Positions 13,497 through 43,881 of a stretch of 64,000 nucleotides of DNA are shown in pieces. The notes beneath the pieces were generated by a model that saw only the letters and a program-made list of their open reading frames with translations, did no database searches and had not been told where the DNA came from. The DNA comes from Synechococcus sp. WH 8101. Lineage in GTDB: Bacteria; Cyanobacteriota; Cyanobacteriia; PCC-6307; Cyanobiaceae. The position numbers were made by a program, and so were the translations under genes. Where the stretch lies: positions 248,001 through 312,000 of the forward strand of contig NZ_CP035914.1 in assembly GCF_004209775.1 (NCBI RefSeq), written 5' to 3'. Within the stretch, counting starts at the first letter, position 1; each line of letters begins with the position of its first letter.

Positions 13497-14420
13497 TCAG
13501 AACTTCCAGCGGAAGCCGCCGCCGTAGTTGATCGATTCGGTGCTGCCGGGTGCGAGCTGACCCAGACCGTTCACGTACAGGCTGAGCTTGTCGTTGACCA
13601 CCACATCGAGGCCCAGGCCCAGATTCCACCAGGAGGAGGGTGCGGCCACACCGGCCACGGTGAACGAGGCAGCCGGTGCCGCGGTGAACTGGGCGGTGAG
13701 GTCGCGGTTGGTGTTGCCCAGATCCCAGGCGTAACCCACGCTCACCCGGGGGATCACGGTCATGCCGTTGGTCTGGAACGGCTGCTTGAACTCCACGCCG
13801 AGCTCGAGCGGAACCGAGCTGTACGACACGTTGTCGTAGCGCAGGGAGTAGCTGGCTTTGCCTGGATCGGGGGAGGCGATCAGCGGGTTGCCGGGCTGTT
13901 GGTAGGCGCGGTTGTTCGACGACGTCGACTCGGAGTAGCTGTTCTGGTTCAGCTGCAGCCAGCTGATGCCCAGCGACGGGATCAGGCTGCCCTGGTTGCC
14001 GGTGTTGATCACCTGGCTCAGTTGCAGCGTGCCGCCCAGGGCGGTGCTGCTGCTGCTGCCTTGTTCCGTGGCGGGGTAGCCAGGAATGTTCACCTGACGG
14101 GTGATGTCGGTGTTGAAGCCGCCCACCCCGAAGGCGCCCGAGAGCCAGGTGGCCGAGCCGAGCCGTTGCTTGGCATACACCATGCCGCTCCAGCCTTCCG
14201 TTTCACCGAAGGTGTTTGGTTCGCCGGTGGTGGTCCAGAGGTTGTCGAAGCGACCGGCGAGGCCCACCAGGGTGTTGCTGCCGATCAGGGTGTCAGCGCC
14301 CACGGTGGTGTTGAACGCCGTGGTGTTGTAACCGGCCTGATCGGAGCTGCCGCTGCCGGGGGTGCTGGCATCAGAGCCACCCGCATTCACCCAGCTGCGC
14401 CACTTGCCGCAATCGGCCGG
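13497..14420 (-). other. C-terminal autotransporter beta-barrel domain
   Basis: The last about 300 residues alternate hydrophobic and polar residues in strand-length blocks, for example NTLVGLAGRFDNLW, GWSGMVYAKQRLG, TWLSGAFGVGGF, LGGTLQLSQVI, PRVSVGYAWDLG and KLSLYVNGLGQLA. The terminal Phe is the Omp85/BAM recognition residue. A helical linker (TAALIFAQETKGDLNALYRQ region) precedes it, as in classical type V autotransporters, where a helix threads the barrel. Confidence 0.8.
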
Positions 14421-17400
14421 ATCGCCGGTGTAGGTCTCGCCCGGCTGAAGTTGCTGCACCTCGGCGATGCAGCGCTGCAACTGGTTGAGCACCGCCGCGT
14501 TGAGGGCGTTGCTCACGTCCTGCTGGAAGGCGAGGCCCGCGGTGATCGTGGCCTGGGGGAAGGCCGCCGAGGTGGCGCCGGAGAGCTGGCGATACAGCGC
14601 ATTGAGGTCGCCCTTGGTCTCCTGGGCAAAGATCAGGGCCGCGGTGGATTCAAACTTGGCGGTGCTCCCCTTGGCCTGGATCTTGTTCACCGCCTTGCCC
14701 ACAGCGGTGCTGTTGGGATCGAGTCCGCTCGGGGCGTAATCCACGGTGTAGCGGAAGCTCAGATCCTGGTTGTTGTCGATCAGATCGAAGCTGAAGGAGG
14801 CCACCGCCGACTTGGGTGCCACCAGCTTGAGATCGCCGATGGTGATCCCATCCAGGGCATCAACGATGCCTTCTGAGATGAAGGTGCCCGGCATGGCCTG
14901 GCCCACCTGGTTGGCGAGCAGGTTCACGGTGCCGTTGAGGTTGGCGCGGTAGCGGGTGGTGAGGTTGTCGGTTTCGCCGGAGCGAAGCACCAGATCCGCC
15001 TCATACACCGAGGTGTCGGTGGTGTCGTAGTTGGCGTTCACCACCAGGTTGCCGATCCGGTATTCCCCGTTGGGATTCACCACACCACGCTGAATCAGCG
15101 TCACGTTGCCGTTCGCATCCACCAGCTGGGATTCGAGGCGGGCGTTGGGCGCGTTGTAGATGTCGCGGGTGATGCCGGGAAGAATGATGTCGCCGGAGAT
15201 CTCGCCGAAGTTGCTGATTTCGTCGGGACCGCCCGGGCCGGTGATGGCATTGCTGCTGCCATCGCTGCCGCCGATGATCGTGCCGTAGTTGATCACGCGC
15301 TCCACCCGGTCGGTGGGCAGGTTGATCGCCGAGCCGCCGTCACCACCCTGGATCAGGGCACCTGCGGCGTTCTCGACGCGCAGGTTGCCGCTGATGACGC
15401 TGGTGCTCTTGGTGATGCCCACGCCGCCCTGGCCGGTGGCACGGATCACACCGCTGTTGCGCACCACCACCTCACCGGCAGGAGCGGTGCCATCGGTGAA
15501 GCCCTCGGTGATCGCGCTCACCGAACCATCGGGGTTCTGATAGAGGTAGGCGCCACCGGTGGCGTTCTGGAACAGCAGGGCCACGGCGTTGGTGCCGGAG
15601 GCGGTGATGCTGCCGCTGTTGTCGATGGTGATGTCGCCGGAGCCACCCGTGGGCTTGCCGAGCAGGCTGGCGCTGTTGTCCTTGCTGACGCCGCCGAACA
15701 CGAAGCCACCACCGCCGGCGATGGTCTGGGCGACTACGGCGTGGGCGCCGGTGCCGCTGGTGCTGATGGCGCCGGTGTTGGTGAAGCTGATGTCGGCCGA
15801 ACTGGAGTCGGCATTGGTGTTGTTGAGGCTCACGGCACCGGAATCGGAACCGCTGACGCCGCCACCACCGCCGATGGTCTGCAGCAGCATCCCGAAGCTG
15901 TTGTCGCCGCTGGTCACGATCGTGCCGCTGTTGCTCACGTTCAGGGCACCGCTGGCTGTGGTGGTGCCGCTGTGGTTGGCCGCCGCGAAGTTGGCGCTGC
16001 TGCCGCCGGTGGTGTAACCACCACCACCACCGATGCTCTGGAGCACCACAGCGGGCGACTGGTTGCCACTGGTGCCGATTACACCACCGTTGTTGCTCCA
16101 GGTGATCGCACCGGCACCGGCATCGGAGCCGAGGGTGCCCGTTCCGCCGGCACCCAGCTGCACCGAGCCGCTGGTGGCTGAGGCGAAACCACCGCCACCA
16201 CCGATGCTCTGGAGCACGAGGGCGGGGCTGGTGTTGCCGCTGCTGCTCACCCGGGCATTGCTGCTGAGGCTCAGGTCGATGGCCGCTGCAGAGCTGTTGC
16301 CCACGTTGAGGTCGGCACCGCTGCGACCGGCCGTGAAGTTTCCGCTCACCACACCCACACTGCCGCCGCCGCCGCCGATCGTCTGGGCGAGAAGGGCGGG
16401 GGCATTGGCGCCGCCGGAGCTGATGCTGCGCTCGAGGCTGAGGGTCAGCGCGCCGGCGCTGCGATCGCCACGGCCGAGGCCGCCGAGAGTGGCATCGCCG
16501 CCCACGTTGGCCGCCGTGCCGCCACCGCCGCCGAGGCTCTGGGCGAGCACGGTGGTGCTGCCGTCGCCACTGCTGGAGAGCGGCGCGTTGATCGTGAGGT
16601 TGAGAGCACCGCCACTGGCGATCGGTGTGCCCAACGGCACGGAGGTGCCGCCGAGGTTGGCATCGCTGCCCACGCTGCCAACGCGTCCACCACCGCCACC
16701 GATCGATTGCAGCAGCAGGGCGCTGGCATCGTTCCCAGTGGTGGCCGCCGCCACCTGGTTGGCGAGGCTCAGATCGGCGCCGGAGGAGGTGCCGCGATAG
16801 AGGCCACCCAACTGGGCAGTGGCGCTGGTGCTGCCGGTGTAACCGCCACCGCCACCGATCGACTGGAAGCTGAAGCCGCTGGAGCCCTCACCTGTGGTGA
16901 CGATCCGGCTGCTGCCGCCGGCACTGAAGCTGAGGCTGCCGCCGCTGCCTTCCGTGCCATTGCTGCCGCCGCCGAGCAGCAGAGCACCGCCGCTGATGGT
17001 GTTGTTCGGGAACACCAGACCGCCGCCGCCACCCACCGACTGGAGCACGAAGGCGGGCGACTGACTGCCGGTGGTCACGATCGAGCCGTTGCCGCCATCG
17101 CTGGCGAGGTTGAGCGAGACGCTGCCGGCGTTGCCACTGCCGCCATCGGCGCCGAGGCTCACCGAACCACTGGCGCTGCCGGCGCGGCCGCCACCGGCAC
17201 CCACCGACTGGCCGAAGAGGCCGATCGATTGATCGCCGCTGGTGCTGATCGTGCCGGTGCTGCTGATGCTCACATCGCTGGCATCACCGGAGCCGCCGCC
17301 ACTGGTGCCCATGCTGAGGGCCGTGCTGGTGCCACCCACCAGGCCGCCACCACCACCGACGCTTTGCACCAGCAGGCCATCGCTGCCAAAGCCGCTGGTG

Positions 17401-20400
17401 CTCACATCGCCACTGAGGTTCACACTCACCGCACCGGCATCGAGGCCTGCGCTGGTGCGGGCGCCGGCCGTGGCACTACCGCTGTTGATCGGTGCGTAAC
17501 CACCGCCGCCACCGATGCTCTGGGCGATCAGGGCCGGCGAGAGGGCGCCGAATGTGGCGAGGCTGTCGTTGATCGTGAGCGTCACAGCGGCGCCGGTGTT
17601 GCGGGTGGCGCCATCGCCGCCGGCGGTGAGGTTGGTGGCTTCCGCACCCTCGAGGCCGAAGATCGCACCGCCACCGCCACCGATCGATTGGGCCACCACC
17701 GCCGCGGAGTTGCTGCCGGCGGTGAGGATCGGCGCGCTGCTGCTGAAGCTGATGCTGTCGGCGTTATTGCTGCCGACCACCGAGCCGCCCAGGTTGATCG
17801 CATCGCCGCCGCTGCTGGTGGCATAGAGGCCGCCACCACCGATCGACTGAAGGATCACGCCACTGGAGTTGTTGCCCGTGGTGGTGATCGCACCAGTGCT
17901 GGTGAAATCGATCGCCGAAGCGCGGCTATCGCCGAAACCGCTGCCGCCGATGCTGATCGCAGTGGGGGCGCTGCCGGTGAGGCCACCGCCGCCGCCGATC
18001 GACTGGATCGTCACGCCCGGTGAGCTGATGCCGCTGGTGCGCACCGGCGCCGCGCTGCTGGCGCTGATCGCACCACCGTGGGCATCACTGAGGAGCTCGG
18101 AGCTGCTGCCCACGCTCAAGCTGCCGTCCACTTGGGCGATCAGGCCGCCACCACCACCGATGCTCTGGAGCACCACGCCGGGGCTGTCGTTGCCCTGGGT
18201 GGTGACGCTGCGTTGCAGCTGGGTGAAGCTGAGGCTGCCGCCACTGCCGTCGACGCCGGCGCGCAGGGTGCCGCCAAGCGTGGCATCGCCGCCCACATCG
18301 GCGGCCACACCACCGCCGCCACCGATCGATTGCAGCACTGCGCCGGGGCTGTTGGCCCCCACGGTGAGCACCTCAAAGGGAAGGATCAGCTCAAGATCGG
18401 CGCCGGTGACCGTACCGGTGCTGAGGCCGCCGAGCTGCACGCTGCCGTTGGGCACGCTGCCGATCCAGCCGCCACCGCCACCGATCGACTGATGGATCAC
18501 GCCGGGGGAGAAGGCGCCGGTGGCCTGCAGGGTGCCGCCGGCATTGATCAGGGTGAGCGTGCCGCCGGAGCCGGCGGTGCCGTTGCTGCCACCACCGAGC
18601 ACAACGGTGCCGCTGCCGGCGCTGTCGCCCAGGCCCACCTGGCCGCCACCACCACCGATGGATTGCATCAGATAAGAGGGCGAGTAAGCGCCGCCGGTGG
18701 CGATCACGCCACCGGCGTTGTTGAGGGTGACGTTGCCGCCATCACCGCTGCCGCCGTTGGCCCCCAGGGTCATGGAGCCGCTGGCAGAGCCGACGCGACC
18801 GCCGCCGCCGCCCACCGACTGCGCCACCACACCGATGCTGTAAAGGCCGCTGGTGCTGATCGTGCCGCCCTGATTGTTGACGGTCACATCGCCGGCGTTA
18901 CCGCTGGCATCGATCGCACCCATCACCAGATCGGAGCTACTGGAGCCGGCGATACCGCCACCAGCGCCCACCGACTGGGCAATCACGCCCTCGGAATTGT
19001 TGCCGAGGGTGGTGATCCGGCCCCGGTTCTCCACGCTGACGTTGCTGGCGTTGGCGATGCCGCCATCCATCCCCAGGCGCATGCTGGCGCCGTTCTGGGA
19101 GGTGAAGCCACCGCCACCACCGATACTCTGGGCGATCACACCCTGCGACTGAACACCGGCGGTGATCAAGTTGCTGCCGCCGCTGAAGTAGAGGTCAACG
19201 GCGCCGCTGCCGCCGATCTGTTGGCCGGCACCGCCGAGTTCCACCACGGCCGCGCTGCCGCTGCCGTCGCCGCCGACGTAACCACCACCACCACCGACTG
19301 ACTGGGCGATCACGGCGGGGGACGAGAGACCGGTGGTCTGGATGCGGGAATTGAATTTGGAGGTGAGGCTGACGTTGCCGGCTGTGTTGGTGCCGATCAC
19401 ATCACCGCCCAGGCTCACCGAACCGCTGGAGGTGAAGGCCACACCACCGCCACCACCGATCGATTGCAGGGTGAGGCCGGGGCTGTTGCGGCCTTCGGTG
19501 CTGATCTGCCAGTCGCGACTGATCGCCTGAACATCACCAGCGGAGGTGTCGGCGACGCTGATGGTGCCGAGATTGAGCTGATCGCCGGCCACATCGGCGG
19601 CATAACCGCCACCGCCGCCGATCGACTGGAGCACCACGCCAGGACTTTCGGCGCCCTGGGTGATCGCGGTGAAGGGTCCGTTGAGGGAGATCGCGCCGGC
19701 ACGCAGTGAGCCGATGCCGTTGCCACCCAGGGTGAGATCACCGGCAACGCTGTTGACGCTGCCGCCACCGCCGCCGATCGATTGCACCACCAGAGCGGCG
19801 GAGTCGTCGCCCGTGGAGGTCATGGAGGCGCCGGCATTGCTGATCACGCGGATGGCGCCGCCGTCGGCGTTGCCGATGCCGTTGGTCATGCCGAGGCTGG
19901 CATTGCCGCCCACCTTGCCGAGGCGACCACCACCACCACCGATGGCCTGCACCAGCATCACCGGAGAGGTGGAGCCGGTGGTGATCAGATCGCCCTGGAT
20001 GTCGATCAGGATGGCTTGCTCAACCGGTTGCTCGGGGCAGCCGCCGAAGGCACAGGCCACCGGATAGAGCATGCCGCTGCTGCCAGCGATGCCCAGGTTT
20101 CCGCTGCTGCCGGAGCTGCCGAGCGTGGCGTCGGTGGCGAGATCACCGGCGAAACCACCACCGGCGCCGATCGATTGCACCACCAGGCCAGGGCTGATGT
20201 TGCCGGTGGTCTGCAGCTGGCCCTGCAGGATCACATTCACGGCACCGCCGGTGCCGGAGTTGAGATCGCTGGCGCCAAGGGTCGCCGAGCTGAGGCTGTC
20301 CACCAGCGACCAACCACCACCACCACCGATCGATTGCAGAACGGCGGCGGCGGACCGGAGCCCGCTGGTGGCGATCGTGTTGCCGCCATTGGAGGTGAAG

Positions 20401-32400: not shown

Positions 32401-35400
32401 GCGGAGTTAACGGAGCCACCGACACCACCACCGCCACCGACGGATTGGAGGAAGACACCGATGGCGTTATCGCCGACGGTTTGAACACCGAGATCCGCGA
32501 GGAGTGAGGAGCTGCCGAGCTGAACGGACCCACCGCTGCCGCCAGCACCGCCCTCACCGGCGAGGGAGACCTGACCACCAAAGGAGAAGTTGGTGTTGGA
32601 GGCATTGGTGGTGGCATTGCTGCCGGTGATGGAACCACCCTGACCGCCACCGCCACCGATGGACTGGAGGAGGATGCCTGTGGCGCCATCACCGGTGCCA
32701 AGGGTGCTGTTGCCGGTGACCACCGTGAGACTGCGGCTGCTGGGTACCAGCAGGCGGACACGGCCGCCAGCACCACCGACGCCACCGGAGCCGCCCATGG
32801 AGAAGGAGGCGGAGGCGGAGATGTTGGCTCCACCGGCACTTGCGGCATTGACGACGGAGCCACCGGCGCCACCACCGCCACCGACGGACTGGGCGAAGAG
32901 ACCGATGGCGCCATCGCCGAGGGTCTGAATGGTGCCGGCGACGGAACCACCGATGGCGCCGCCGGATCCACCACCACCACCACTGCCGGAGACACCGGCG
33001 GAGGCGCCAAAGGAGAAGCTGGAATTCGCAGAGGTGGCTTCTGAGGAGGCATTGGAGGTGACGGAACCACCCTGACCACCACCGCCACCGACGGACTGGA
33101 GGAGGATGCCGTGGGAGCTCATGCCGGCGGTGAGGAAGGTGCCGTCGGCGTAGAGATTCACATTGCTGGCACTGCCGCCATTGCCGCCGGAACCACCCAT
33201 GGCGAAGGAGGCGGAGAGGTTGCCACCGGCTGCAGCGGCGGAGTTAACGGAGCCACCGACACCACCACCGCCACCGACGGATTGGAGGAAGACACCGATG
33301 GCGTTATCGCCGACGGTTTGAACACCGAGATCCGCGAGGAGTGAGGAGCTGCCGAGCTGAACGGACCCACCGCTGCCGCCAGCACCGCCCTCACCGGCGA
33401 GGGAGACCTGACCACCAAAGGAGAAGTTGGTGTTGGAGGCATTGGTGGTGGCATTGCTGCCGGTGATGGAACCACCCTGACCGCCACCGCCACCGATGGA
33501 CTGGAGGAGGATGCCTGTGGCGCCATCACCGGTGCCAAGGGTGCTGTTGCCGGTGGAGACCACCAGTCGACCGGGCACCGACAGATTGATGCTGCCGCCA
33601 GCACCACCGTTGCCGCCGGTCCCGCCCATGGCGAAGGAGGCCGACGCAGAGATATTGGCGCCCCCGGCGGATGATTCCGCTTGCGTCACTGAGCCACCGG
33701 CACCACCACCGCCACCGACGGACTGGGCGAAGAGGCCATAGGACTGATCGCCCTGGGTGCCGATCTGACCAATCAGGCTGCCATTGATCGCGCCGGCATT
33801 GCCGCCACCACCACCCTCACCGGCAACGCCGGCGGAGGCGCCGAAGGAGAAGCTGGAATTAGCCGTTTTCGCTTCTGAGGAGGCATTGGAAGTAACGGAG
33901 CCACCGGCACCGCCACCGCCACCGATCGATTGCAACAACACACCTGTGGCGTATTGGCCCGATGTCAGGAAGGTGCCGTCTGCGAACACGCTGACGTTGC
34001 CGGCGCTGCCTCCGTTGCCGCCGGCGCCGCCCATGCCGAACGACACCGAGAGGTTGCCGGCCGATGAGCCGTTGGTGGTGGAGGAGCCGATGCCGCCGCC
34101 ACCGCCAACCGATTGGAGCAGCATCGCGGTGGCGTTGTCACCGAGGGTGGTGACGTTGACATCAACCAGGTTGGAACTGGAGCCGAAGCTGACAGCACCA
34201 GCCGAACCACCCGATCCACCGGTGCCACCAACCCCAGCTGAAGCTCCGAAGGTGAAGCTGGCATTGGAGTCGGTGGTGGTGGTGGATTTGACATCACCGG
34301 CCCGACCACCGCCGCCACCCAAACTTTGCAGGGTGATGCCCACCGAAGAGTCGCCACGGGTGAGCACATTGATCGGCTTCAGCCCAATCAGGCTGACGGC
34401 TCCACCAGAGCCACCGGATCCACCGGAGCCGCCCATCGCGAAGGACGCCGAACCAGACACACTGCTGCCGCCGGATGCCGACGCATCACTGAGAGCAGAG
34501 CCACCGGCACCACCGCCACCGCCGACGGATTGGAGGAACAGACCATCGGAGGAGGCGCCGCTGGTGACGACGTTGCCGCCATAACCAACCGAAACGGCCC
34601 CGGCGTTGCCACCACCACCGCCATTACCGGAGACGCTGACACTGGCGCCAAAGCTGAACGTCGAATTGCCGGAGCTGGAACTTGAGCTGCTGCTTGAACT
34701 GGAACTGGACGATGAACTGCTGTTGCCTGAGGGGGCGCTGGCGCTAGAGCGGGTGGTGGTGCTGCCGCCAGCACCGCCACCACCACCGATCGACTGGGCA
34801 ATCAGACCTGCGGCGTTATCGCCTGCGGTGAGGATGTCGGCCAGAGTGTTGACGGTGACGTTGCTGGCGTTTCCACCAGCGCCGCCCTGGGCGCCCATGC
34901 TGAAGTTCACGTTCAGGGCGCCGCCCTGATTGTTGGCGCTAGCGCCACCACCGGTACCACCACCGCCACCGACGGATTGGGCCAGGAAGCCCGTGGCACT
35001 GTCGCCAGCTGTGGTGACAGCCAACACCAGTGGATTGCTGCTGCCGTTGCCGACGGTCACCGTGCCGCTATCGCCACCGGTGCCGCCCTTGCCGCCGACG
35101 TTGGCGCTGGCACCAAACGAATATTTGGATTCAGATTTGTTGTAGCTGGTGTTGCTGGTACTGCCGCCGGCACCACCACCGCCGCCGATCGATTGAGCGA
35201 CCAGGCCCGATGCGAGCGAGCCGGAGGTGGTGATCGTGAGCCCGTTGCCGGTGCTGTCAGGCCGCACGGTCACCGAAGCACCCGATCCACCCTGGGTCCC
35301 GGCGCCGCCCAGATTGACGTTCACGCTGCCCTGAATCGTGTCGCTGCCCGATTTGGAGGCCGTGAGGTTGAACGATTCGCTGCTGCCGCCGGCGCCACCG

Positions 35401-38400
35401 CCACCACCCACCGATTGGGCGAGCAGGCCAGTCGCCGAAGCGCCGAGGGTGGTGATCGCACCCGACACATTGACCAGCACGTTGCCGGCATTGCCACCGG
35501 GGCCGCCGTCGCCACCCACATTGGCGCCGAGGCTGATCGGCTTTCCTGCCTTAGAGATTGTGGCCTGATAGCTGGTGGAGGAGCCACCGGTGCCACCACC
35601 GCCACCCACCGACTGGGCCAGGATGCCGTAGGAAAAATCTCCGGCGATCACATCACCGTCATCGTTAGAGAGACCGGTGGAGATGATGCTGCTCGACGAC
35701 ACGGTGACGGAGCCGGAATTGCTGCCACTACCGCCAGAACCACCCAGATTCACGCCACCGGTGATGGCCATCTGATTGGAATTGCTTGCGGTCGCCTGCA
35801 GGTTGAGGGTGCTGCCACCGCTTCCGCCGCCGCCGCCGATCGACTGGGCCACAATGCCGCCAGCGAAATCACCCAGGGTTGTGATCCTGGGAGCTGTGTT
35901 GGTGACCGTGACCGAGGCCGCCGAGCCACCAGCACCACCGGTGCCACCGATGTTGACGCCGATGTTGACGGCAGCATCGGAATTGGACGCACTCAACTGA
36001 GCGTTCGTCGCCGTCCCACCGGCGCCGCCACCGCCCCCCACCGACTGGGCGAAGAGTCCGTAGGCGAAATCGCCATACACCACATCGCCGTAGGTGCTGT
36101 TGCTGAGCAGCGTCCCGGTGCTGATCGTGCCGCTGTTGTTGATGGTGACGCTGTCGGCATTGCCGCCGGAGCCGCCGTCACCACCGACGTTGGCGCCGGC
36201 ATTGATCGTTTTCCCCTTTGAGGAGAGGCCCAGCTGCACATTGACGGCCTGACCGCCACTGCCGCCCTGGCCACCGAGAGATTGACCGTAAACGCCTGCA
36301 CTCAGGTTGCCGATGGTGAGGATGTCGCCACTGTTGGTGATGTTCACGGCACCGCCGGTGCCGCCGTTGCCCCCACTGCCGCCGAGATTCACACCGAAAT
36401 TGGCGGCGTTGGATTGCGACAGGCTCAACTGGCCGCTGTAGGTGTTGCCACCGGCGCCACCGCCACCACCCACCGACTGGGCGTAGATGCCGTAGGCATT
36501 GTTGCCATACAGCACCTCATTAAGGATGGTGCCGGTGGTGATGGCTGCCGTGTTGCTCACGGTCACGGCACCGGCATTGGAGGCTGGGCCACCGTCGCCA
36601 CCGATGTTGACCCCGGCATTGAGGGCCTGACCATTACCGCCACCGGCGATGCTCGCCTGGATGTTCAGCACGCTGCCGCCGACGCCACCGCCGCCACCGA
36701 TCGACTGGGCCAGGATGCCCGTAGCGAAATCGCCAAGGGTGCGGATGCTGGAGCCCGTGTTGCTCACGCTGACGGAGCTCGCATTGCCTCCTGCGCCGCC
36801 GGTGCCACCGAGGTTTACGCCGGCATTGACCGTGGGTTGGCCACTGAAACCGGCAGAAAGCTGAGCTGAGATGGCGCTGCCGCCGGCACCACCACCACCG
36901 CCCACCGACTGGGCAAAGATGCCATAGCCATAGCCGCCGAAAAGTTGACTCTCACCGTTGACGTTGTTGGTGAGAACGGTGCCTGTGCGCAGGTTGCCGC
37001 TGTTGGTGACCGTGACGGATCCAGCGTTGCCGGCAGCAGCCCCTTTACCACCCACGGCTGCTCCGGCGTTGATGGCGGTTCCACTGCTCGACCCCGACAG
37101 CTGGGCATTAATCACACGGCCACCGGAGCCGCCGCCACCACCAAGCGATTGGGCATAGATCGCGGCCGCCTGATCGCCAAGGGTGGTGATCGAGCCGCTG
37201 TTGCTGATCGAGACGTTGCCGCTGTTGGACCCCGTGCCTCCATCTCCTCCAAGGCTGACGCCGACGTTGACTGAGGCATCCTGCGATAACGACAGGGTGC
37301 CACTGATGGCCTGGCCGCCGGCGCCACCGCCGCCGCCCACCGACTGGGCGTAGATGCCGTAGGCGTTGTTGCCATACAGCGTGTTGTAGGTGCCGTTGTC
37401 GAAGATCGTGCCGGTGCTGATGTCGGCGAGGTTGCTCACACTCACATTCGAGGCGGTGCCGCCGCTGCCACCCTTGCCGCCCAGGGTGACGCCAGCCGAC
37501 ACGGCGGTTTGTCCTCCGGAGGCCTGAATGTTGAGGGCGCTGCCACCGGCACCACCGCCACCGCCGATTGACTGGGCCAGGATGCCCGTAGCGAAATCGC
37601 CCAGGGTGGTGATCGAGGCACCGTTGTTCGTCACAGAAACGGAGCCGGCGGTGTTGCCGCTGCCGCCACCGCCACCGATGGCGACGCCTGTGCTGACAGA
37701 AACCTCAGTTCCAACCGCCACGTTGGCCTGCAGCACACTGCCGCCGGTGCCGCCACCGCCACCCACCGACTGGGCGTAAATGCCATAGGAATAGATGCCG
37801 GCGAGGTAGGCATCCAGACCATCAGCAGCGGGGATGACGCTGCCGGTGCTGATGGTGGCGTTGTTGGTGACCGACACATTGCCGGCGTAACCACCGCTGC
37901 CACCTTGGCCGCCAACGGTGGCCTGGGCGCTCACCGGGACTCCACCTGAGCCGGAGAGGGACGCGGTCAGCGCGGAGCCACCATTGCCGCCGCTGCCGCC
38001 CACCGATTGGGCAAAGAGACCGGCGGATTGGTCGTTGAGGGTGGTGACGGAGGTACCGGTGTTGTTGACGGTGACGTTGCCGGCGAAGGCACCGCTACCC
38101 GCCTTTCCGCCCACGGTGGCGCCGACGCCCACGCTGGCGCTGCCGCCCACCTGGAGCTGCCCGGTGATGGCGTTGCCGCCGCTACCACCGCTGCCGCCAA
38201 CGCTCTGGGCGAACAGGCCAGGAGCATTGGTGCCTTCGGTGCGCAGCAGGGAGCTGTTGCTCACGCTCACCGTGCTACCGGAACCACCACGGCCACCGGT
38301 GCCGCCGAGGGTCACGCCCACGTTCACGGCGCCATCGCCCCCAGCAAGCTGGAGAGTCATGGCACTGCCGCCGGCACCACCGCCGCCGCCCACCGACTGG

Positions 38401-41400
38401 GCATAGATAGCCGCAGCATTGGCTCCAACGGTTTCGATGGAGCTGCCAGTGGAGCTCACGGTGACGCTGCCGCCGCTGCCGCCGCCGGATCCGCCACCGC
38501 CGATGGTGGCCCCGGCGTTCACGCCCGCACTGCCAATGGCGATGGAACCACTGATCGCATTGCCGCCGGATCCGCCACCGCCACCCACCGACTGGGCGAA
38601 AATGCCATAGGACTGACTGCCTTGGGTGCGGATGCTGCTGCCACTGGTGACGGTCACCGCGCTGGCATTACCACCGCCGGAACCAGAGCCGCCCACGGCC
38701 GCACCTGCATTCACGCCTGCTGCACCACCCGAGGCACTCACGCTCAGGACGGAACCGCCGGCGCCGCCACCACCGCCCACCGATTGGGCGTAGATACCAG
38801 CCGATTGATTACCAAGGGTGGAAATCAATCCGGAGCTCGTCGTCACCGTGACGCTGCCTGCATTGGCACCGCTGCCTCCGGTGCCGCCCACCGACCCACC
38901 CACGTTCACGCCGGCACTACCACCGCCGGAGAGTTGGATGTTGAGGGAAGAACCGCCCTGGCCACCACCGCCGCCGATCGACTGGGCCAGGATCCCCTGG
39001 GAGAAATCACCGAGGGTGCTGATCAGGTCATCATCAGCAAAATCTGCCGTGACGGTGACATTGCCGGAGTTGACACCGCTGCCACCGGAACCGCCGATGC
39101 CGAAATTGGCGCTGACACCGGCGGTGCCGCCAATGGCCACGCTTCCGGTGATCGCCGAACCGCCCTGGCCGCCGCCACCACCGACCGATTGGGCCAGGAT
39201 GCCGGGGGAGTAGCTCTCGCCTTCGATCAGGCCAGTGCGGATCGATCCGTCGCTGTAGGTGAGATTGACGTTGCCGCCGGCACCACCACCACCACCGGAT
39301 CCGCCAACGCCGACGGCAACGGAACCACTGGCCACCGGATTGGCACTGAAGGATCCGGTGATGGCCGAACCGCCGCTGCCGCCACCACCACCGATGGACT
39401 GAATCAGGATGCCCGGCGAATAGCTGCGGGAGGTGCTGAGATCGCCGCTGATGTTGCCGCTGGCGCTGCCGGCAGAACCGCCCGAAGATCCTGACCCACC
39501 GACACCGACGCCGATGCTGGCGGTGATCGAGCCTGAAGCGGAAATGGCGCTACCACCACTGCCGCCGCCACCGCCGATGCTGCTGATGCTCACGCCTGGC
39601 GAATAGGCGCCGGTGGTGGTGATCGCTGAGCCGCTGAAGTTGGCCGACACGCTGTTGCCACTGCCCCCGGCGGAACCGGAACCACCCACCGAGGGGGCGA
39701 CGGCACCGGCACCGGCGGAGATGCTCAGGCTCTGACCGCCACTGCCGCCGCCGCCGCCGATGCTGGCGGCATTCAGGCCGGGAGACTGGAATCCAGACGT
39801 GCTGATCGTGCCATCGGCAAAGACATTGACCGGGCCGGAATCACCACCACTGCCACCTTTGCCACCCACGCCGACGCTGGCGCTGATCCCAGCACTGAAG
39901 GAGATGGCGCCTGCGCTGCCGCCGGCGCCACCGCCACCGCCAATGCTGGTGGCACTGATGCCTGGCGAGAAATCACCACGCGTGGTGATGTCTGCAGAGA
40001 ACGGCGACCCGCTGGCGCCCACATTGACGGTGCCGCCCGTGTTGCCGGATCCGCCACTACCGCCCACTGCGACGGAGACGGAGAAACCAGCACCGACAGA
40101 ACCGGACGTGGAGCTGCCGCCGTTACCGCCGCCGCCGCCGATGCTCTGCACCAACAGGCCAGGGGAGCTGTTGCCAGAAGTATTGATCGTGATGGGGTCA
40201 GCATCTGCAGGTGCGGTGACCTGAGCTGTTCCACCCTTGCCGCCGGCGGCACCATTGCCACCCACGGCAACAGAGATACCAACGCCCGCTGAGCTGGCAT
40301 TGCCGCCATTACCGCCGCCGCCGCCGACCGATTGCACGATCACCCCAGGGGCATAGTCCTGGAAGGTGGTGACGCTACCGCCGGAAAGCTGGGCGGACGC
40401 AGTGCCGCCGTCACCACCGGTGCCGCCCTCGGCACCGAAGGCGATGATTCCGTAACTGGTGCCGGCACTGCCGCCGCCGCCACCGATCGACTGCACCAGG
40501 ATGCCGGAGGAGAGGGTGCCGGCACTGGCGGGACCTGTGGTGATCGATCCGCCTGAAAAGGTGAGTGAGGCCGTGCCGGCATTGCCGCCTGCACCGGCCG
40601 TGGAGGACGACCCCAGCGTGATCGCAGACACCATGCTGCCGATGGCACCACCGCCGCCGCCGATCGATTGAACGATGATCCCCTGAGAGCTATCGCCATT
40701 GGTGATGATGGTGCCGGCGCTCATCGACGCGGAGGCCGTGGCGCCATCACCGCCGGCTCCCCCTTCACTCGAGCCCAGATTCACGATCGACACGGAGCCG
40801 GGGACGGAACCGCCGCCGCCACCGACCGACTGCGCGTTGATGCCCGGCACGTTGTTACCGGTCGTGCTGATCGTGCCGGTGTTGCTGGCGTTCACGTTGC
40901 CGGCGTTACCGCCGGTACCACCAGTGCCGCCATAGGTGACGATCAATCCGCCGCTACCGGAGGCGCCACCCTGGCCGCCCACCGATTGCACCAGGATGCC
41001 GGCGCCGCCGGCGTCACCGGCAGAGTTGACAGTGATCGTGCCGGCATTGGTTCCGGTGGCCAGGCCGGAAAAACCGCCCGTGCCACCTGTCCCACCGGAG
41101 CCGAAAGTGCCGCTGCCGCCTTCGCCACCGATGCCACCGGTGTTCTGCGAGAGCACACCGATCGCACCACCGTTGTCGGAACTGGTGGAGCTGTTGCTGA
41201 CGCTTACTGAGGCACCGCTCTGAATCGTGATCCCTGCCGTCTGACCGGTGGAGCTGCCGCCGGCTCCTCCAGGACCACCACTAGAGAGGCCAGCGCCACC
41301 GCCATCCCCGCCCTGTCCGGAAATCGCTGAGGCCTGAACGCCGACCAGTTTGTTGGCGTTGGCTGAGAGCGAAATCGAGCTGCCGCTCGACATCGTGACG

Positions 41401-41783
41401 GAGACATTGCCTGGCGAGCCACCCGTTCCGCCCGCACCGCCGTTGCCGACGGACGTGCCACCCGTACCGCCGTTACCTCCTGTGGATTCGGAGCCCAGGC
41501 CCCCACCCTCGGTGCCGGAGATCGCTCCGTAATTGCCAGTGACCGTCTGGGTGATGTTGGGCCCCTGACCGCCGCTACCACCGGTTTCGCCGGTGCTGCT
41601 CCAGGGGTCATAACCCTTATTGGAGCCGTTGCTACCGGTTCCGTAGAGGTAGGGGTCTGACGGTGGAGAGGTGTAGGAGCCTGAGCCGACATTCTGAGTC
41701 TGGGCGAGCACGCTCGTCGTCTTCCCCGCCAACAACATGAAGGCGGGAAGGAGAGCCAGTGCCGAGGATGCTCGCCGATTCAA
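13497..41783 (-). CDS. Giant autotransporter-like repeat surface protein (9,428 residues)
   Basis: A single uninterrupted frame of 28.3 kb. An N-terminal signal peptide (cleavage predicted after VLA, residue 27) is followed by about 9,000 residues of Gly/Ser/Asn/Thr-rich repeats. The recurrent unit reads roughly V-T-x-x-G-x-I-x-T-x-G-x-x-S-x-G-(I/L)-x-x-Q-S-(I/V)-GGGGG-x-(A/G)-G. This resembles stacked beta-helix rungs of autotransporter adhesins. The final about 300 residues look like an outer-membrane beta-barrel ending in Phe (FRWKF). Up to residue about 4,450 the spacers are long and GGxGG-rich; beyond that they are shorter. The start is TTG, six codons after an in-frame stop. The likely role is a huge surface-anchored layer, filament or adhesin; this is inference. 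It is divergent from a Tic22-like gene. No transporter gene is adjacent. Confidence 0.85.
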   Translation of the reverse strand: MNRRASSALALLPAFMLLAGKTTSVLAQTQNVGSGSYTSPPSDPYLYGTGSNGSNKGYDPWSSTGETGGSGGQGPNITQTVTGNYGAISGTEGGGLGSESTGGNGGTGGTSVGNGGAGGTGGSPGNVSVTMSSGSSISLSANANKLVGVQASAISGQGGDGGGAGLSSGGPGGAGGSSTGQTAGITIQSGASVSVSNSSTSSDNGGAIGVLSQNTGGIGGEGGSGTFGSGGTGGTGGFSGLATGTNAGTITVNSAGDAGGAGILVQSVGGQGGASGSGGLIVTYGGTGGTGGNAGNVNASNTGTISTTGNNVPGINAQSVGGGGGSVPGSVSIVNLGSSEGGAGGDGATASASMSAGTIITNGDSSQGIIVQSIGGGGGAIGSMVSAITLGSSSTAGAGGNAGTASLTFSGGSITTGPASAGTLSSGILVQSIGGGGGSAGTSYGIIAFGAEGGTGGDGGTASAQLSGGSVTTFQDYAPGVIVQSVGGGGGNGGNASSAGVGISVAVGGNGAAGGKGGTAQVTAPADADPITINTSGNSSPGLLVQSIGGGGGNGGSSTSGSVGAGFSVSVAVGGSGGSGNTGGTVNVGASGSPFSADITTRGDFSPGISATSIGGGGGAGGSAGAISFSAGISASVGVGGKGGSGGDSGPVNVFADGTISTSGFQSPGLNAASIGGGGGSGGQSLSISAGAGAVAPSVGGSGSAGGSGNSVSANFSGSAITTTGAYSPGVSISSIGGGGGSGGSAISASGSITASIGVGVGGSGSSGGSAGSASGNISGDLSTSRSYSPGILIQSIGGGGGSGGSAITGSFSANPVASGSVAVGVGGSGGGGGAGGNVNLTYSDGSIRTGLIEGESYSPGILAQSVGGGGGQGGSAITGSVAIGGTAGVSANFGIGGSGGSGVNSGNVTVTADFADDDLISTLGDFSQGILAQSIGGGGGQGGSSLNIQLSGGGSAGVNVGGSVGGTGGSGANAGSVTVTTSSGLISTLGNQSAGIYAQSVGGGGGAGGSVLSVSASGGAAGVNAGAAVGGSGSGGGNASAVTVTSGSSIRTQGSQSYGIFAQSVGGGGGSGGNAISGSIAIGSAGVNAGATIGGGGSGGGSGGSVTVSSTGSSIETVGANAAAIYAQSVGGGGGAGGSAMTLQLAGGDGAVNVGVTLGGTGGRGGSGSTVSVSNSSLLRTEGTNAPGLFAQSVGGSGGSGGNAITGQLQVGGSASVGVGATVGGKAGSGAFAGNVTVNNTGTSVTTLNDQSAGLFAQSVGGSGGNGGSALTASLSGSGGVPVSAQATVGGQGGSGGYAGNVSVTNNATISTGSVIPAADGLDAYLAGIYSYGIYAQSVGGGGGTGGSVLQANVAVGTEVSVSTGVAIGGGGGSGNTAGSVSVTNNGASITTLGDFATGILAQSIGGGGGAGGSALNIQASGGQTAVSAGVTLGGKGGSGGTASNVSVSNLADISTGTIFDNGTYNTLYGNNAYGIYAQSVGGGGGAGGQAISGTLSLSQDASVNVGVSLGGDGGTGSNSGNVSISNSGSITTLGDQAAAIYAQSLGGGGGSGGRVINAQLSGSSSGTAINAGAAVGGKGAAAGNAGSVTVTNSGNLRTGTVLTNNVNGESQLFGGYGYGIFAQSVGGGGGAGGSAISAQLSAGFSGQPTVNAGVNLGGTGGAGGNASSVSVSNTGSSIRTLGDFATGILAQSIGGGGGVGGSVLNIQASIAGGGNGQALNAGVNIGGDGGPASNAGAVTVSNTAAITTGTILNEVLYGNNAYGIYAQSVGGGGGAGGNTYSGQLSLSQSNAANFGVNLGGSGGNGGTGGAVNITNSGDILTIGNLSAGVYGQSLGGQGGSGGQAVNVQLGLSSKGKTINAGANVGGDGGSGGNADSVTINNSGTISTGTLLSNSTYGDVVYGDFAYGLFAQSVGGGGGAGGTATNAQLSASNSDAAVNIGVNIGGTGGAGGSAASVTVTNTAPRITTLGDFAGGIVAQSIGGGGGSGGSTLNLQATASNSNQMAITGGVNLGGSGGSGSNSGSVTVSSSSIISTGLSNDDGDVIAGDFSYGILAQSVGGGGGTGGSSTSYQATISKAGKPISLGANVGGDGGPGGNAGNVLVNVSGAITTLGASATGLLAQSVGGGGGAGGSSESFNLTASKSGSDTIQGSVNVNLGGAGTQGGSGASVTVRPDSTGNGLTITTSGSLASGLVAQSIGGGGGAGGSTSNTSYNKSESKYSFGASANVGGKGGTGGDSGTVTVGNGSSNPLVLAVTTAGDSATGFLAQSVGGGGGTGGGASANNQGGALNVNFSMGAQGGAGGNASNVTVNTLADILTAGDNAAGLIAQSIGGGGGAGGSTTTRSSASAPSGNSSSSSSSSSSSSSSSSSGNSTFSFGASVSVSGNGGGGGNAGAVSVGYGGNVVTSGASSDGLFLQSVGGGGGAGGSALSDASASGGSSVSGSASFAMGGSGGSGGSGGAVSLIGLKPINVLTRGDSSVGITLQSLGGGGGRAGDVKSTTTTDSNASFTFGASAGVGGTGGSGGSAGAVSFGSSSNLVDVNVTTLGDNATAMLLQSVGGGGGIGSSTTNGSSAGNLSVSFGMGGAGGNGGSAGNVSVFADGTFLTSGQYATGVLLQSIGGGGGAGGSVTSNASSEAKTANSSFSFGASAGVAGEGGGGGNAGAINGSLIGQIGTQGDQSYGLFAQSVGGGGGAGGSVTQAESSAGGANISASASFAMGGTGGNGGAGGSINLSVPGRLVVSTGNSTLGTGDGATGILLQSIGGGGGQGGSITGSNATTNASNTNFSFGGQVSLAGEGGAGGSGGSVQLGSSSLLADLGVQTVGDNAIGVFLQSVGGGGGVGGSVNSAAAAGGNLSASFAMGGSGGNGGSASNVNLYADGTFLTAGMSSHGILLQSVGGGGGQGGSVTSNASSEATSANSSFSFGASAGVSGSGGGGGSGGAIGGSVAGTIQTLGDGAIGLFAQSVGGGGGAGGSVVNAASAGGANISASASFSMGGSGGVGGAGGRVRLLVPSSRSLTVVTGNSTLGTGDGATGILLQSIGGGGGQGGSITGSNATTNASNTNFSFGGQVSLAGEGGAGGSGGSVQLGSSSLLADLGVQTVGDNAIGVFLQSVGGGGGVGGSVNSAAAAGGNLSASFAMGGAGGSGGSASNVNLYADGTFLTAGASSTGVLLQSVGGGGGQGGSVTSNASSEATSANSSFSFGASAGVSGSGGGGGSGGAIGGSVAGTIQTLGDGAIGLFAQSVGGGGGAGGSVVNAASAGGANISASASFSMGGSGGVGGAGGRVRLLVPSSRSLTVVTGNSALGTGDGATGILLQSIGGGGGQGGSITGSNATTNASNTNFSFGGSGGLAGTGASGGVGGAVQLGSSGQIANLAVQTGGDNANALFLQSVGGGGGVGGSVNSAAAAGGNLSASFAMGGSGGNGGSASNVNLYADGTFLTAGASSTGVLLQSVGGGGGQGGSVTSNASSEATSANSSFSFGASAGVSGSGGGGGSGGAIGGSVAGTIQTLGDGAIGLFAQSVGGGGGAGGSVVNAASAGGANISASASFSMGGSGGVGGAGGRVRLLVPSSRSLTVVTGNSTLGTGDGATGILLQSIGGGGGQGGSITGSNATTNASNTNFSFGGQVSLAGEGGAGGSGGSVQLGSSSLLADLGVQTVGDNAIGVFLQSVGGGGGVGGSVNSAAAAGGNLSASFAMGGSGGNGGSASNVNLYADGTFLTAGMSSHGILLQSVGGGGGQGGSVTSNASSEATSANSSFSFGASGAVGANGGGGGWGQTVNASLSGLIVTEGDSSIGLFAQSIGGGGGAGGSVTDDATGAGNANITASASFAMGGAGGSGGSGGRVSLLTPSRLTVATGNSTLGTGDGAHGILLQSIGGGGGTAGSVIGSNVSTSASNSNFSFGASGALTTGGGNGGQASTVQLGSSGQIADLAVQTAGDNAIGIFLQSIGGGGGAGGSVNSAASAGGNLSASFAMGGAGGSGGQASNVSLYADGTVVTGGNVSHGLLLQSIGGGGGQGGSITSNAASSADSANSTFSFGAASGVGGSGGSGGQAGQVLAQLSGEVSTSGDQAMGVLLQSIGGGGGAGGAVTSAASGSGNASYSAGAGFSMGGSGGNGASGNRVTLQNGIADTLTVVTSGSGSHGVFLQSVGGGGGQGGSVTEAASNSTTSAQLGGLASSVSGSGGGGGQGGVVTLTMGNLRIGTSGDNARGLFAQSVGGGGGSAGSSTNNVQGGDVGLSVAIGGSGGSGGDGNTVNITTRDGLISTTGSSASAMFIQSVGGGGGDATSFVDGTASSTLSLNGTIGGSGGSGGSGGTVTVSNAARLQTTGANSIGLYVQSIGGGGGATSLAAPGDDSENSFSGSLQVGGSGGSGGNGGNVNVTNSGVIVTTGSQSHGLLSQSIGGGGGRVSINSAVASEGTTASLSFGGSGGDGGNAGNVTVNNSGSITVTGDAAYGLYAQSVGGGGGSLSSTAPLSVSLGGSGGGGGNSGDITITNDGTIITTGSTGIGLMALAIGGGGGDVGSTRDALSLGASGGNGGNAGDITITNNGSIETYGEGSYGVVAKSIGGGGGRATASVNEGTISLGGSGGAGGDSGNVVLTNTGNIATYGPSSIPVYLHSIGGGGGDAQSGFGDAVLGSNGADGQSGTTRLINTGTLVSNDQFSPAILYQAIGGGGGSLDSANGTVALGSRNAEGVQSGQAMSLVNRGTLVTLADYSPTMFTQSIGGGGGRVAQTRGGAVSLGSVSGSSSADLSGADINIQSNGDQLITRGEFSPAISAQSIGGGGGWVGPVEGDLQLGAINSTSAMNGGAITLTNNAEIITTGNTSAGITLQSLGGGGGYSGAVNGDAQMGSMGSGGAQNADAVTLTNTASILSTGNFSPLVNVQSIGGGGGRAGSINGTLNLGAINLLGTANAGDVSVTLSGAALTSTGAASPALLAQSIGGGGGSTAQVTGNVTMGASGSGSANAGNVVVTNRSQISTEGADSMGLMAQSIGGGGGLAGQTYGDALILGGSMSGSSQGGSVTVTNRAGITTQGVNAAGLVAQSIGGGGGAAAKITGTLSRLGASGSALANAGDVTVRNSGVLQTSGNGSPALLLQSIAGGGGVIAETNALASYDVTLAGSDLGQAIAGDVTLNNTGNAIVTAGAYSPGLIAQSIGGGGGWSLLRSSPDAQLGSQGGTSLGAGNVSVINNSTIITTADYSTGAVIQSIGGGGGVTGNALGNVTLGASSMSGALSAGAVSLRQSGAIGTSGLNSAALVVQTIGGGGGLGGQVLGNAVLGMSSTSSGVATAGDLSVVTEADLLVTRGDSSPAMVIQSIGGGGGWIGNVGGNARLGADMGGVTSSGAITVTNTVPTIVTQGENSTGLLVQSIAGGGGFTGITAGDDLTLGGTLRASSVSSASDVAMTSRSSIATQGLNAAAFVVQSIGGGGGASATDTGNQVILGADASGASNTRAQGGAITLTNSGDLLTAANGSAALIAQSIGGGGGYISETAGTNDYTVRVGSLGSVNANAGDVTINNIASRLETLQDFSPVFTVQSIGGGGGYALVSAQNLANTRIGARNNSDSANGGAIEVTNTADLVSSGDASAALTVQSIGGGGGVISSASGGLLLGGFNLTGNASGGSVSVSNSGSVLTLGDVSSAMLVQSIGGGGGSVAGSDSGDVRLGGTLGNGEGSLSAGDVSVNNRGQAIETRGDGAFALIAQTIGGGGGYLGSSASTTQLGGEDLSNTQAGNVSVTNSSTISTSGNAATVLLAQSIGGGGGVVSLTNGNTLTLGGERLENASAGDVTVNNSGDLSSTGITAPLLTVQSIGGGGGFTTTYANALMQEPITLGDLNSRNTAAGDLTITNSGNLISTGTSSTGLIAQSIGGGGGNIRRLGQEQLANNLVLGAEGLVNGTGGAISLRNTGALIQTEGDYARAMLVQSIGGGGGWVAGNVSSNTISQLGAQESSGTLSAGDLTITNSADIITTGLSAAGITAQSIGGGGGVIGNRAGSISMGMLNSTGQASGGSLDLTNTGSISTSGNGAAGLIAQSIGGGGGLANQVYGDLGLGLDGSGGSVTANGGDVSVTNRGAAIVTRGEGSPALVSQSIGGGGGYLGSQQTKNLGGRLGSGAYDRNQLTEVPIPQLGSDYTLNSGAVELTNRAEILTIGSTSPGVIAQSVAGGGGVTGLILNGILTNGMNGPGRASAGNVSVDNSGQVITNGIGSSALLAQSIGGGGGFSSADSNDELFLGALYAQLAEAGDVVVTNSGNLQTSGEGSIGLLAQSIGGGGGANAYVNPDISLGSSDRLYLSSYFSNEGNAGDLTITNTSALIRTNANSSPGMLIQSVAGGGGWSALTGETTANARLGSRGGTNAQAGDLNVSNSADVVTVGSDSHAIRLQSVGGGGGAISAYTNEMRMGSLDAAGNLSGGSISLRNSGSVGTSGDTSVGVNVLSLGGGGGTVFGGAAQKVQMGTVTESAVVADAGSIDVRQTGALIRTEGDGASGLAMMSTGGGGGFIADVRGDLNVGSQISSGSARGGAISAVNSSRISTVGDYSPGLILQSAGGGGAITGSVGRTDQLVNVGSRGQAIADSGAITLNSTADITTVGIASPALLGQSIAGAGAYIPLSNNPNFIKLGSNGSGSAQAGNLTINTSGILQTEGIGSQALILQSIGGGGGFIGDTDLDATDAGAILMGRQGSVSAALVDIAAAWQQAWLNLLPNISTNENYELSFLNDIDDGLTALITGPGGGGDGGGGAINLNASGSQFSTQAANSSVVLTQSIGGGGGWVLIDQGSTYSLLGSLKSDGGDGGSISLTIDADLISQGNNSPVLVSQSIGGGGGYAGSSRYITRLGASQSSGSMTGGAIDADYSGAISSSGNYGIGLVLQSVGGGGGMADNVDGAALLGATDIASSGSSLDGGAITGRSSGAISTQGNNAPGLLAQSIGGGGGRIGNVNGELQLGSSTSSVSQSGAAVTITSSSSITTLGENSSGLVSQSVGGGGGIAGINTSLYSSWLGAENPLLSSGGAVSLTSGGAIRTAGNNAAGLVAQSVGGGGGLAALLSEGVTGQSLILGSRSASGANSGAVTVTNNANIVTAGVASPAVLLQSLAGGGGAVQGLQSANSGLIQLGSSNSSNANAAAINFTSNGGNTIATSGLRSAAAVLQSIGGGGGWSLVDSLSSATLGASDLNSGTGGAVNVILQGQLQTTGNISPGLVVQSIGAGGGFAGDLATDATLGSSGSSGNLGIAGSSGMLYPVACAFGGCPEQPVEQAILIDIQGDLITTGSTSPVMLVQAIGGGGGRLGKVGGNASLGMTNGIGNADGGAIRVISNAGASMTSTGDDSAALVVQSIGGGGGSVNSVAGDLTLGGNGIGSLRAGAISLNGPFTAITQGAESPGVVLQSIGGGGGYAADVAGDQLNLGTISVADTSAGDVQAISRDWQISTEGRNSPGLTLQSIGGGGGVAFTSSGSVSLGGDVIGTNTAGNVSLTSKFNSRIQTTGLSSPAVIAQSVGGGGGYVGGDGSGSAAVVELGGAGQQIGGSGAVDLYFSGGSNLITAGVQSQGVIAQSIGGGGGFTSQNGASMRLGMDGGIANASNVSVENRGRITTLGNNSEGVIAQSVGAGGGIAGSSSSDLVMGAIDASGNAGDVTVNNQGGTISTSGLYSIGVVAQSVGGGGGRVGSASGSMTLGANGGSGDGGNVTLNNAGGVIATGGAYSPSYLMQSIGGGGGQVGLGDSAGSGTVVLGGGSNGTAGSGGTLTLINAGGTLQATGAFSPGVIHQSIGGGGGWIGSVPNGSVQLGGLSTGTVTGADLELILPFEVLTVGANSPGAVLQSIGGGGGVAADVGGDATLGGTLRAGVDGSGGSLSFTQLQRSVTTQGNDSPGVVLQSIGGGGGLIAQVDGSLSVGSSSELLSDAHGGAISASSAAPVRTSGISSPGVTIQSIGGGGGLTGSAPTAISIGGSGFGDSRASAIDFTSTGAITTTGNNSSGVILQSIGGGGLYATSSGGDAINLGGSVVGSNNADSISFSSSAPILTAGSNSAAVVAQSIGGGGGAIFGLEGAEATNLTAGGDGATRNTGAAVTLTINDSLATFGALSPALIAQSIGGGGGYAPINSGSATAGARTSAGLDAGAVSVNLSGDVSTSGFGSDGLLVQSVGGGGGLVGGTSTALSMGTSGGGSGDASDVSISSTGTISTSGDQSIGLFGQSVGAGGGRAGSASGSVSLGADGGSGNAGSVSLNLASDGGNGSIVTTGSQSPAFVLQSVGGGGGLVFPNNTISGGALLLGGGSNGTEGSGGSLSFSAGGSSRIVTTGEGSSGFSFQSIGGGGGYTGSTSATAQLGGLYRGTSSGADLSLANQVAAATTGNDASALLLQSIGGGGGRVGSVGSDANLGGTSVPLGTPIASGGALNLTINAPLSSSGDGSTTVLAQSLGGGGGTAANVGGDATLGGLGRGDRSAGALTLSLERSISSGGANAPALLAQTIGGGGGSVGVVSGNFTAGRSGADLNVGNSSAAAIDLSLSSNARVSSSGNTSPALVLQSIGGGGGFASATSGSVQLGAGGTGTLGSDAGAGAITWSNNGGVIGTSGNQSPAVVLQSIGGGGGYTTGGSSANFAAANHSGTTTASGALNVSNSGTIVTSGDNSFGMLLQTIGGGGGVSGSDSGAVSLNNTNADSSSADISFTNTGAISTSGTGAHAVVAQTIAGGGGFVFGGVSKDNSASLLGKPTGGSGDITIDNSGSITASGTNAVALLFQNATGGAYLYQNPDGSVSAITEGFTDGTAPAGEVVVRNSGVIRATGQGGVGITKSTSVISGNLRVENAAGALIQGGDGGSAINLPTDRVERVINYGTIIGGSDGSSNAITGPGGPDEISNFGEISGDIILPGITRDIYNAPNARLESQLVDANGNVTLIQRGVVNPNGEYRIGNLVVNANYDTTDTSVYEADLVLRSGETDNLTTRYRANLNGTVNLLANQVGQAMPGTFISEGIVDALDGITIGDLKLVAPKSAVASFSFDLIDNNQDLSFRYTVDYAPSGLDPNSTAVGKAVNKIQAKGSTAKFESTAALIFAQETKGDLNALYRQLSGATSAAFPQATITAGLAFQQDVSNALNAAVLNQLQRCIAEVQQLQPGETYTGDPADCGKWRSWVNAGGSDASTPGSGSSDQAGYNTTAFNTTVGADTLIGSNTLVGLAGRFDNLWTTTGEPNTFGETEGWSGMVYAKQRLGSATWLSGAFGVGGFNTDITRQVNIPGYPATEQGSSSSTALGGTLQLSQVINTGNQGSLIPSLGISWLQLNQNSYSESTSSNNRAYQQPGNPLIASPDPGKASYSLRYDNVSYSSVPLELGVEFKQPFQTNGMTVIPRVSVGYAWDLGNTNRDLTAQFTAAPAASFTVAGVAAPSSWWNLGLGLDVVVNDKLSLYVNGLGQLAPGSTESINYGGGFRWKF
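30493..33555 (-). repeat. Tandem 837-bp (279-residue) near-identical repeats inside the giant gene
   Basis: The same sequence recurs with an exact 837-base period: copies at 30493-31329, 31330-32166 and 32167-33003, and a partial copy at 33004-33555. Period and boundaries were read from matching anchors such as the GCGCCAAAGGAGAAGC element. The period is a multiple of three, so the frame is kept. Copies are almost identical except for a diverged patch in the second (about 31610-31760) and alternative versions of a short segment near each GGGGG motif. Outside these limits the homologous units are much more diverged. Confidence 0.9.
34671..34721 (-). repeat. Run of 17 serines in the giant protein
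   Basis: Seventeen consecutive Ser codons on the minus strand, using TCC, AGC, AGT, TCA and TCG in mixed order. This is the only long homopolymer of one amino acid in the protein other than Gly runs. It sits between beta-helix units, just before GNSTFSFGAS in protein order. It may be a flexible spacer or a site for glycosylation. Confidence 0.85.
41703..41783 (-). other. Signal peptide of the giant surface protein
   Basis: The N-terminus has MNRR as a basic n-region, then a hydrophobic stretch ALALLPAFMLLAG, and TSVLA before QTQN as an AxA-like cleavage site. This predicts Sec export. No extended signal-peptide region of the kind seen in many large autotransporters is present. Confidence 0.75.
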
Positions 41784-43861: not shown

Positions 43862-43881
43862 GGCGCTCCTGAGGTTGTTGC

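Follow-up and report, generated by a model that had tools for sequence, protein, structure and literature searches.

A 9,428-residue repeat protein of Synechococcus sp. WH 8101 is best read as a giant type Va autotransporter

Synechococcus sp. WH 8101 encodes a giant acidic protein whose best reading is a type Va autotransporter, given its barrel profile matches, its terminal aromatic residue, a modelled stretch of its passenger and the Omp85 gene of its host. We propose that this protein probably forms a long, acidic, cell-attached rod, that its gene belongs to a surface-sugar cluster and that it serves mainly as a shield or spacer. The gene was studied within a 64,000-nucleotide stretch of contig NZ_CP035914.1 (the window; positions 248,001 to 312,000). 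Its features are collected in Table 1.

The giant gene and its barrel anchor

A sequence-only reading of the window had described the gene as a single uninterrupted frame, and this description holds. The gene starts with TTG, remains open throughout and contains a single stop, the terminal one, and the five alternative frames of the same DNA contain 57 to 459 stops each. The host genome consists of one contig of 2.63 Mb, in which the PF03797 matches come from the giant gene only. Residues 1-28 resemble a Sec signal peptide, and both the start position and this signal-like segment are kept in relatives, with TTG as the start codon in genome G018 and GTG in genome G019. The passenger contains 2 cysteines and has 348 acidic versus 145 basic (K+R) residues, corresponding to a net charge near -200.

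Table 1. Features of the giant gene (window positions) and of its sphingomonad relatives (plasmid positions)
Feature	Position	Strand	Details
Giant autotransporter gene (best reading)	13497..41783	(-)	9,428 aa, 864 kDa, pI 4.1
Signal-peptide-like N-terminus, residues 1-28	41700..41783	(-)	NRR, hydrophobic core, VLA-Q; by eye
Gly/Ser-rich N-terminal region, residues 29-263	40995..41699	(-)	ahead of first scored repeat
Passenger, residues 264-8736	15576..40994	(-)	139 units of 53- to 65-residue QS[IV]GGGGG repeat
Tandem 279-aa block x3, residues 2758-3594	31002..33512	(-)	four repeats each; 92.5-97.4% DNA identity
Passenger stretch modelled as beta-solenoid	18462..19313	(-)	pLDDT 86.3, pTM 0.88
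Conserved pre-barrel linker, residues 8979-9100	14484..14849	(-)	homologous to sphingomonad autotransporters
Autotransporter beta-barrel, terminal Phe	13500..14396	(-)	PF03797, TIGR01414
Sphingobium baderi giant	NZ_CP128178.1, 105177-126590		about 7,137 aa; annotated hypothetical protein
Novosphingobium sp. RL4 giant	NZ_CP141945.1		open frame 6,093 aa

The Pfam search that the sequence-only reading had proposed for its claimed outer-membrane barrel ending in Phe returned PF03797 at the C-terminus with 137.3 bits (E 9.9e-40, cut-off 26), and the protein ends in ...GGGFRWKF, with an aromatic final residue. The TIGR01414 profile also matched (53.2 bits, cut-off 16) with a 367-residue C-terminal piece that includes part of the linker, but it was unmatched when a 729-residue C-terminal piece was scanned. 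Together, the two profile matches bear out the autotransporter architecture of the earlier reading. The AlphaFold2 model of the barrel, computed from a three-row alignment, had a pLDDT of 29.5, and a PDB sequence search with the C-terminal 729 residues gave a chance-level match only. The host genome contains one Omp85 (BamA-type) gene (156.6 bits) and one TamB gene (178.3 bits).

The repeat passenger

GGGGG runs occur 133 times in the giant protein, at a median distance of 57 residues. A repeat HMM, derived from 119 of the 126 inter-motif intervals of the protein (the remainder fell outside 45-80 residues), detects 139 units across residues 264-8736 and none in one composition shuffle. These counts are close to the order of 150 repeats suggested earlier. 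As a control, the HMM found no repeat unit in ten of eleven frames of other autotransporters from the phylum, most of which end at locus edges and thus represent mainly the barrel; the eleventh frame, with 6 units, is itself the giant of genome G241.

What is the fold of the passenger? No family was matched by short passenger pieces (279-434 residues), of which six were scanned against Pfam and six against NCBIfam. Pieces of 1,500 to 1,928 aa also matched nothing in Pfam or NCBIfam, barrel included; this second blank means little because the long pieces missed even the barrel, and the short passenger pieces carry the weight. A structure model of a 284-residue stretch, out of about 8,500 passenger residues, is a solenoid of short strands with high scores (Table 1); it was computed from 11 segments of the giant protein itself, each five repeats long and aligned in register. 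In VIA-align, the best match of this model is the Vag8 passenger, with an rmsd of 2.0 over 130 residues and a Z of 10.1. Next come a serine-rich repeat protein with a Z of 8.8, a bacterial antifreeze protein with 8.4 and Fap2 with 8.3; a Z near 8 may reflect merely a common arrangement. In Foldseek, no match of the model in PDB or BFVD reached an E below 0.01 (best PDB match, E 0.1). A beta-helical passenger had been expected from the sequence, and the modelled stretch, with Vag8 as its nearest structure, agrees with this expectation. The model suggests that the passenger is a beta-solenoid, a fold that is extended beyond the modelled stretch by repeat homology.

The matched structures also bear on the length of the predicted rod. 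In the five best structural chains, the matching stretches comprise 111 to 190 residues and span nearly the whole model. A coil of the antifreeze protein has 19 residues, and this coil size and the lengths of the matched stretches together imply about six coils per five repeats. Such a geometry suggests about one coil per 53-residue repeat. Given the beta-helix rise of 0.48 nm per coil, 139 x 0.48 nm would yield a rod of ~67-70 nm. The sequence-only reading had envisaged a rod hundreds of nanometres long, a figure that should probably be lowered to ~70 nm in view of the matched stretches.

Selection along the gene

The relative in G018, a 9,151-aa frame in a single-contig genome, is collinear with the giant over 9,144 codons. 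It lacks one 279-residue block, and the other internal indels comprise one or two residues. Over these codons, the Nei-Gojobori dN/dS ratio is 0.118, with values of 0.108 and 0.138 in the two passenger halves, 0.046 in the linker and 0.080 in the barrel. The ratio is below 0.25 in all 19 segments of up to 500 residues each, and the raised values of 0.22-0.25 at residues 3001-4000 perhaps result from misalignment of block copies. The strong selection on the open frame that had been postulated is thus seen as purifying selection along the whole gene. Copies 1 and 2 of the block in the window share 97.4% DNA identity, and the first copies of the window and G018 share 93.5%; since identity is higher within than between the genomes, one block copy probably arose after the split.

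An assembly artefact was the objection that the sequence-only reading had raised against itself. The frame might reflect repeat collapse or expansion in the assembly, or a decaying gene that G+C-rich repeats alone keep open. Block copies as similar as those of the tandem array could be miscounted by assembly, and in genome G006 a frame change interrupts a relative close to its start. However, G018 is a second single-contig genome, and its collinearity and low dN/dS ratio contradict an artefact, as do further giants in separate assemblies. We therefore consider an artefactual or decaying frame highly improbable.

The low ratio of the linker is compatible both with a passenger that stays attached and with one that is cleaved after export and released to the medium or matrix. 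Some autotransporters do release their passengers, but inspection by eye recognised no cleavage motif in the linker of the giant, and we regard cleavage as unlikely.

Relatives in cyanobacteria

A linker-barrel profile matched 26 of 400 genomes of the family at E 1e-3 and exceeded 300 bits in only seven, namely the window's own genome (G000), G006, G008, G012, G018, G019 and G241. Because so few genomes of the family carry a relative of this strength, the giant appears to be dispensable in the lineage. Giant relatives, with frames of 4.7-10.8 thousand residues, are found in a further five genomes of the genus and in one of another genus. The frames in G012 and G008 reach contig ends, so that their lengths are minimal values. 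The repeats themselves, at E 1e-10, occur in 10 of 400 family genomes, which adds G011, G027 and G282, whose frames are small or partial. In the phylum sample, repeats occur in 6 of 386 genomes, one of them (G608, with a 4,170-aa frame that has PF03797) from another family, and PF03797 of any kind occurs in 66. Family f43 of this sample, from a separate class of the phylum, has PF03797 genes in many genomes, with six matches apiece in two. A viral origin of the giant was rejected: a pattern matched 26 stretches in viral contigs, and none of these encoded a relative of linker and barrel.

Within the genus, the match is absent from some genomes, and other genomes have one giant or two or three loci. 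G019 encodes a giant with a type-A N-terminus (10,770-residue frame) and one with a type-B N-terminus (7,451), and its third locus contains a 4,754-residue barrel-bearing frame that adjoins a repeat frame with a masked stretch. G006 encodes a type-B giant of 7,858 residues alongside a type-A giant of 8,643, the latter being the split frame mentioned above. Identity among N-termini is 0.69-0.94 within type A, 0.85-0.94 within type B and 0.47-0.54 between the types, whereas the C-terminal 450 residues cluster by genome (1.00 in G006, 0.97 in G019 and 0.72-0.73 between the two). The paralogues of G006 (L032-L035) share 3,054 identical bases at their 3' ends. Since the N-termini group by type but the anchors by genome, the pattern suggests that the anchors were homogenised by gene conversion in the two genomes that bear on it. 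An assembly effect may lie behind the identical anchors of G006.

Two further observations concern these loci. The type-A split of G006 lies at L034 (G006:C1:274822-275158), near the 5' end, and is either real or a sequencing error. The paralogue loci of G019 are L026-L029, which combine type-specific N-termini with anchors that are near-identical within the genome.

Relatives in sphingomonads

In a tblastn search with the last 450 residues, five plasmid records matched. Three are Achromobacter autotransporters with about 25% identity, and the other two, from Novosphingobium sp. RL4 and Sphingobium baderi, show about 40% identity over the linker (104 residues, E 3e-7). The latter two plasmids encode giants that have the QS[IV]GGGGG repeat in common with the cyanobacterial protein, with 101 HMM units in Sphingobium and 62 in the portion of the Novosphingobium frame that was examined; the profile matches number 30 and 23, respectively. 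Their linker and barrel are homologous to those of the giant (hhalign probability 97, E 5e-11, 357 columns), although just 28% of residues are identical over these columns. A tblastn search of plasmids with a passenger piece gave no match, probably as a result of simple-repeat masking, and the repeat profile found two plasmids. We consider transfer between the phyla likely.

The sphingomonad giants differ from the cyanobacterial one in that they are shorter, lie on plasmids of Alphaproteobacteria and have a second long frame downstream. The Sphingobium giant is directly followed by a 2,175-aa frame (L075 9291-15818) with no Pfam match, and the Novosphingobium giant is also followed by a long frame, of 1,850 codons.

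Proposed function

How could a protein of this size act at the cell surface? We propose that the Sec system would export the giant protein and that the BAM complex would insert its C-terminal barrel. The passenger would then thread out and fold one coil at a time, giving a beta-helical rod about 70 nm long with roughly 140 coils. The rod would presumably lie on the cell surface and stay attached, uncleaved, and the acidic rod would cross the polysaccharide layer and extend outside it. Its main role would be to shield or space the cell from grazers, phages and other cells.

The genes around the giant fit a cell-surface gene cluster, with nucleotide-sugar genes on both sides: rhamnose-pathway-like genes and a family-4 glycosyltransferase gene lie to its left, and genes for UDP-sugar dehydrogenase and epimerase lie to its right. 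This cluster may be an O-antigen cluster. Upstream of the giant lies a PhyH-family dioxygenase gene (43016-43927, minus strand). G019 and G006 have kept this gene region beside their giants, and it was not found in the examined part of G018.

As an alternative to shielding, the giant may act mainly in adhesion. Its repeats would in that case stick to those of neighbouring cells or bind particles and thereby produce aggregates or biofilm, in the manner of self-associating autotransporters. Beta-helical autotransporter passengers are often adhesins, the autotransporter adhesin Fap2 is among the structural matches, and relatives occur in sphingomonads of rhizosphere soil and activated sludge. However, Pfam and NCBIfam detected no adhesin domain in the pieces scanned, and a passenger with so strong a net negative charge would not be expected to self-associate simply unless cations take part. 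A mainly adhesive role is possible but less probable than the shield or spacer that we favour.

Comparison with known giant proteins

Bordetella Vag8 and Fusobacterium Fap2 have a beta-helical passenger like that predicted for the giant, with 21% identity over the aligned residues. Both also have a C-terminal barrel, but they are far shorter and have been studied in bacteria of animals.

SwmB of Synechococcus WH8102 (10,791 aa) is likewise a giant surface protein of a picocyanobacterium, and it is compared here by its description. Published work reports roles of SwmB in swimming and predation resistance (PMC9387257, PMC4949707), its detection with other giant proteins in exoproteomes (PMC4949707) and the placement of swmB in an island (PMC7522525). 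The word autotransporter does not appear in the main text of PMC4949707. The four giants described in PMC9387257 have cadherin-like, lectin-like or RTX repeats, unlike QS[IV]GGGGG. Other giant ORFs of marine Synechococcus, given as 5-84.5 kb in PMC2441476, resemble this gene in being very long and in belonging to the same organism group. Searches of open-licence papers yielded none on a class of QS[IV]GGGGG repeats joined to an autotransporter anchor. Thus, giant surface proteins were already known in Synechococcus, and the combination of this repeat with an autotransporter anchor suggests a new variation.

If the proposed reading is correct, small and ecologically important phototrophs export a type V secretion cargo of great length, which raises the question of how one barrel can pass a chain of about 8,500 residues. 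The patchy presence of the giant within the genus would also provide a genetic handle on giant-protein protection against grazers and phages. In a broader scenario, one class of giant beta-helical autotransporters would move horizontally between picocyanobacteria and sphingomonads and build a palisade of ~70-nm rods above the surface polysaccharide. Gene conversion would keep the anchors of paralogues in one genome near-identical, and passengers would diversify as four-repeat blocks are gained and lost, which would make the shield evolvable. This scenario is doubtful as a whole; its anchor-conversion pattern is directly testable across more genomes.

Other features of the window

ARAGORN predicted a tRNA-Ser at 34155-34227 (minus strand), inside the giant frame, which has no Rfam match and is probably spurious. 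At 56419-59481 (minus strand), the window encodes a 1,020-aa clostripain-type peptidase (PF03415) with DUF4114, and the G+C content there is 50% compared with about 65% around it. The gene at 11795-12202 (plus strand) encodes a PIN-domain protein that may be one partner of a toxin-antitoxin pair.
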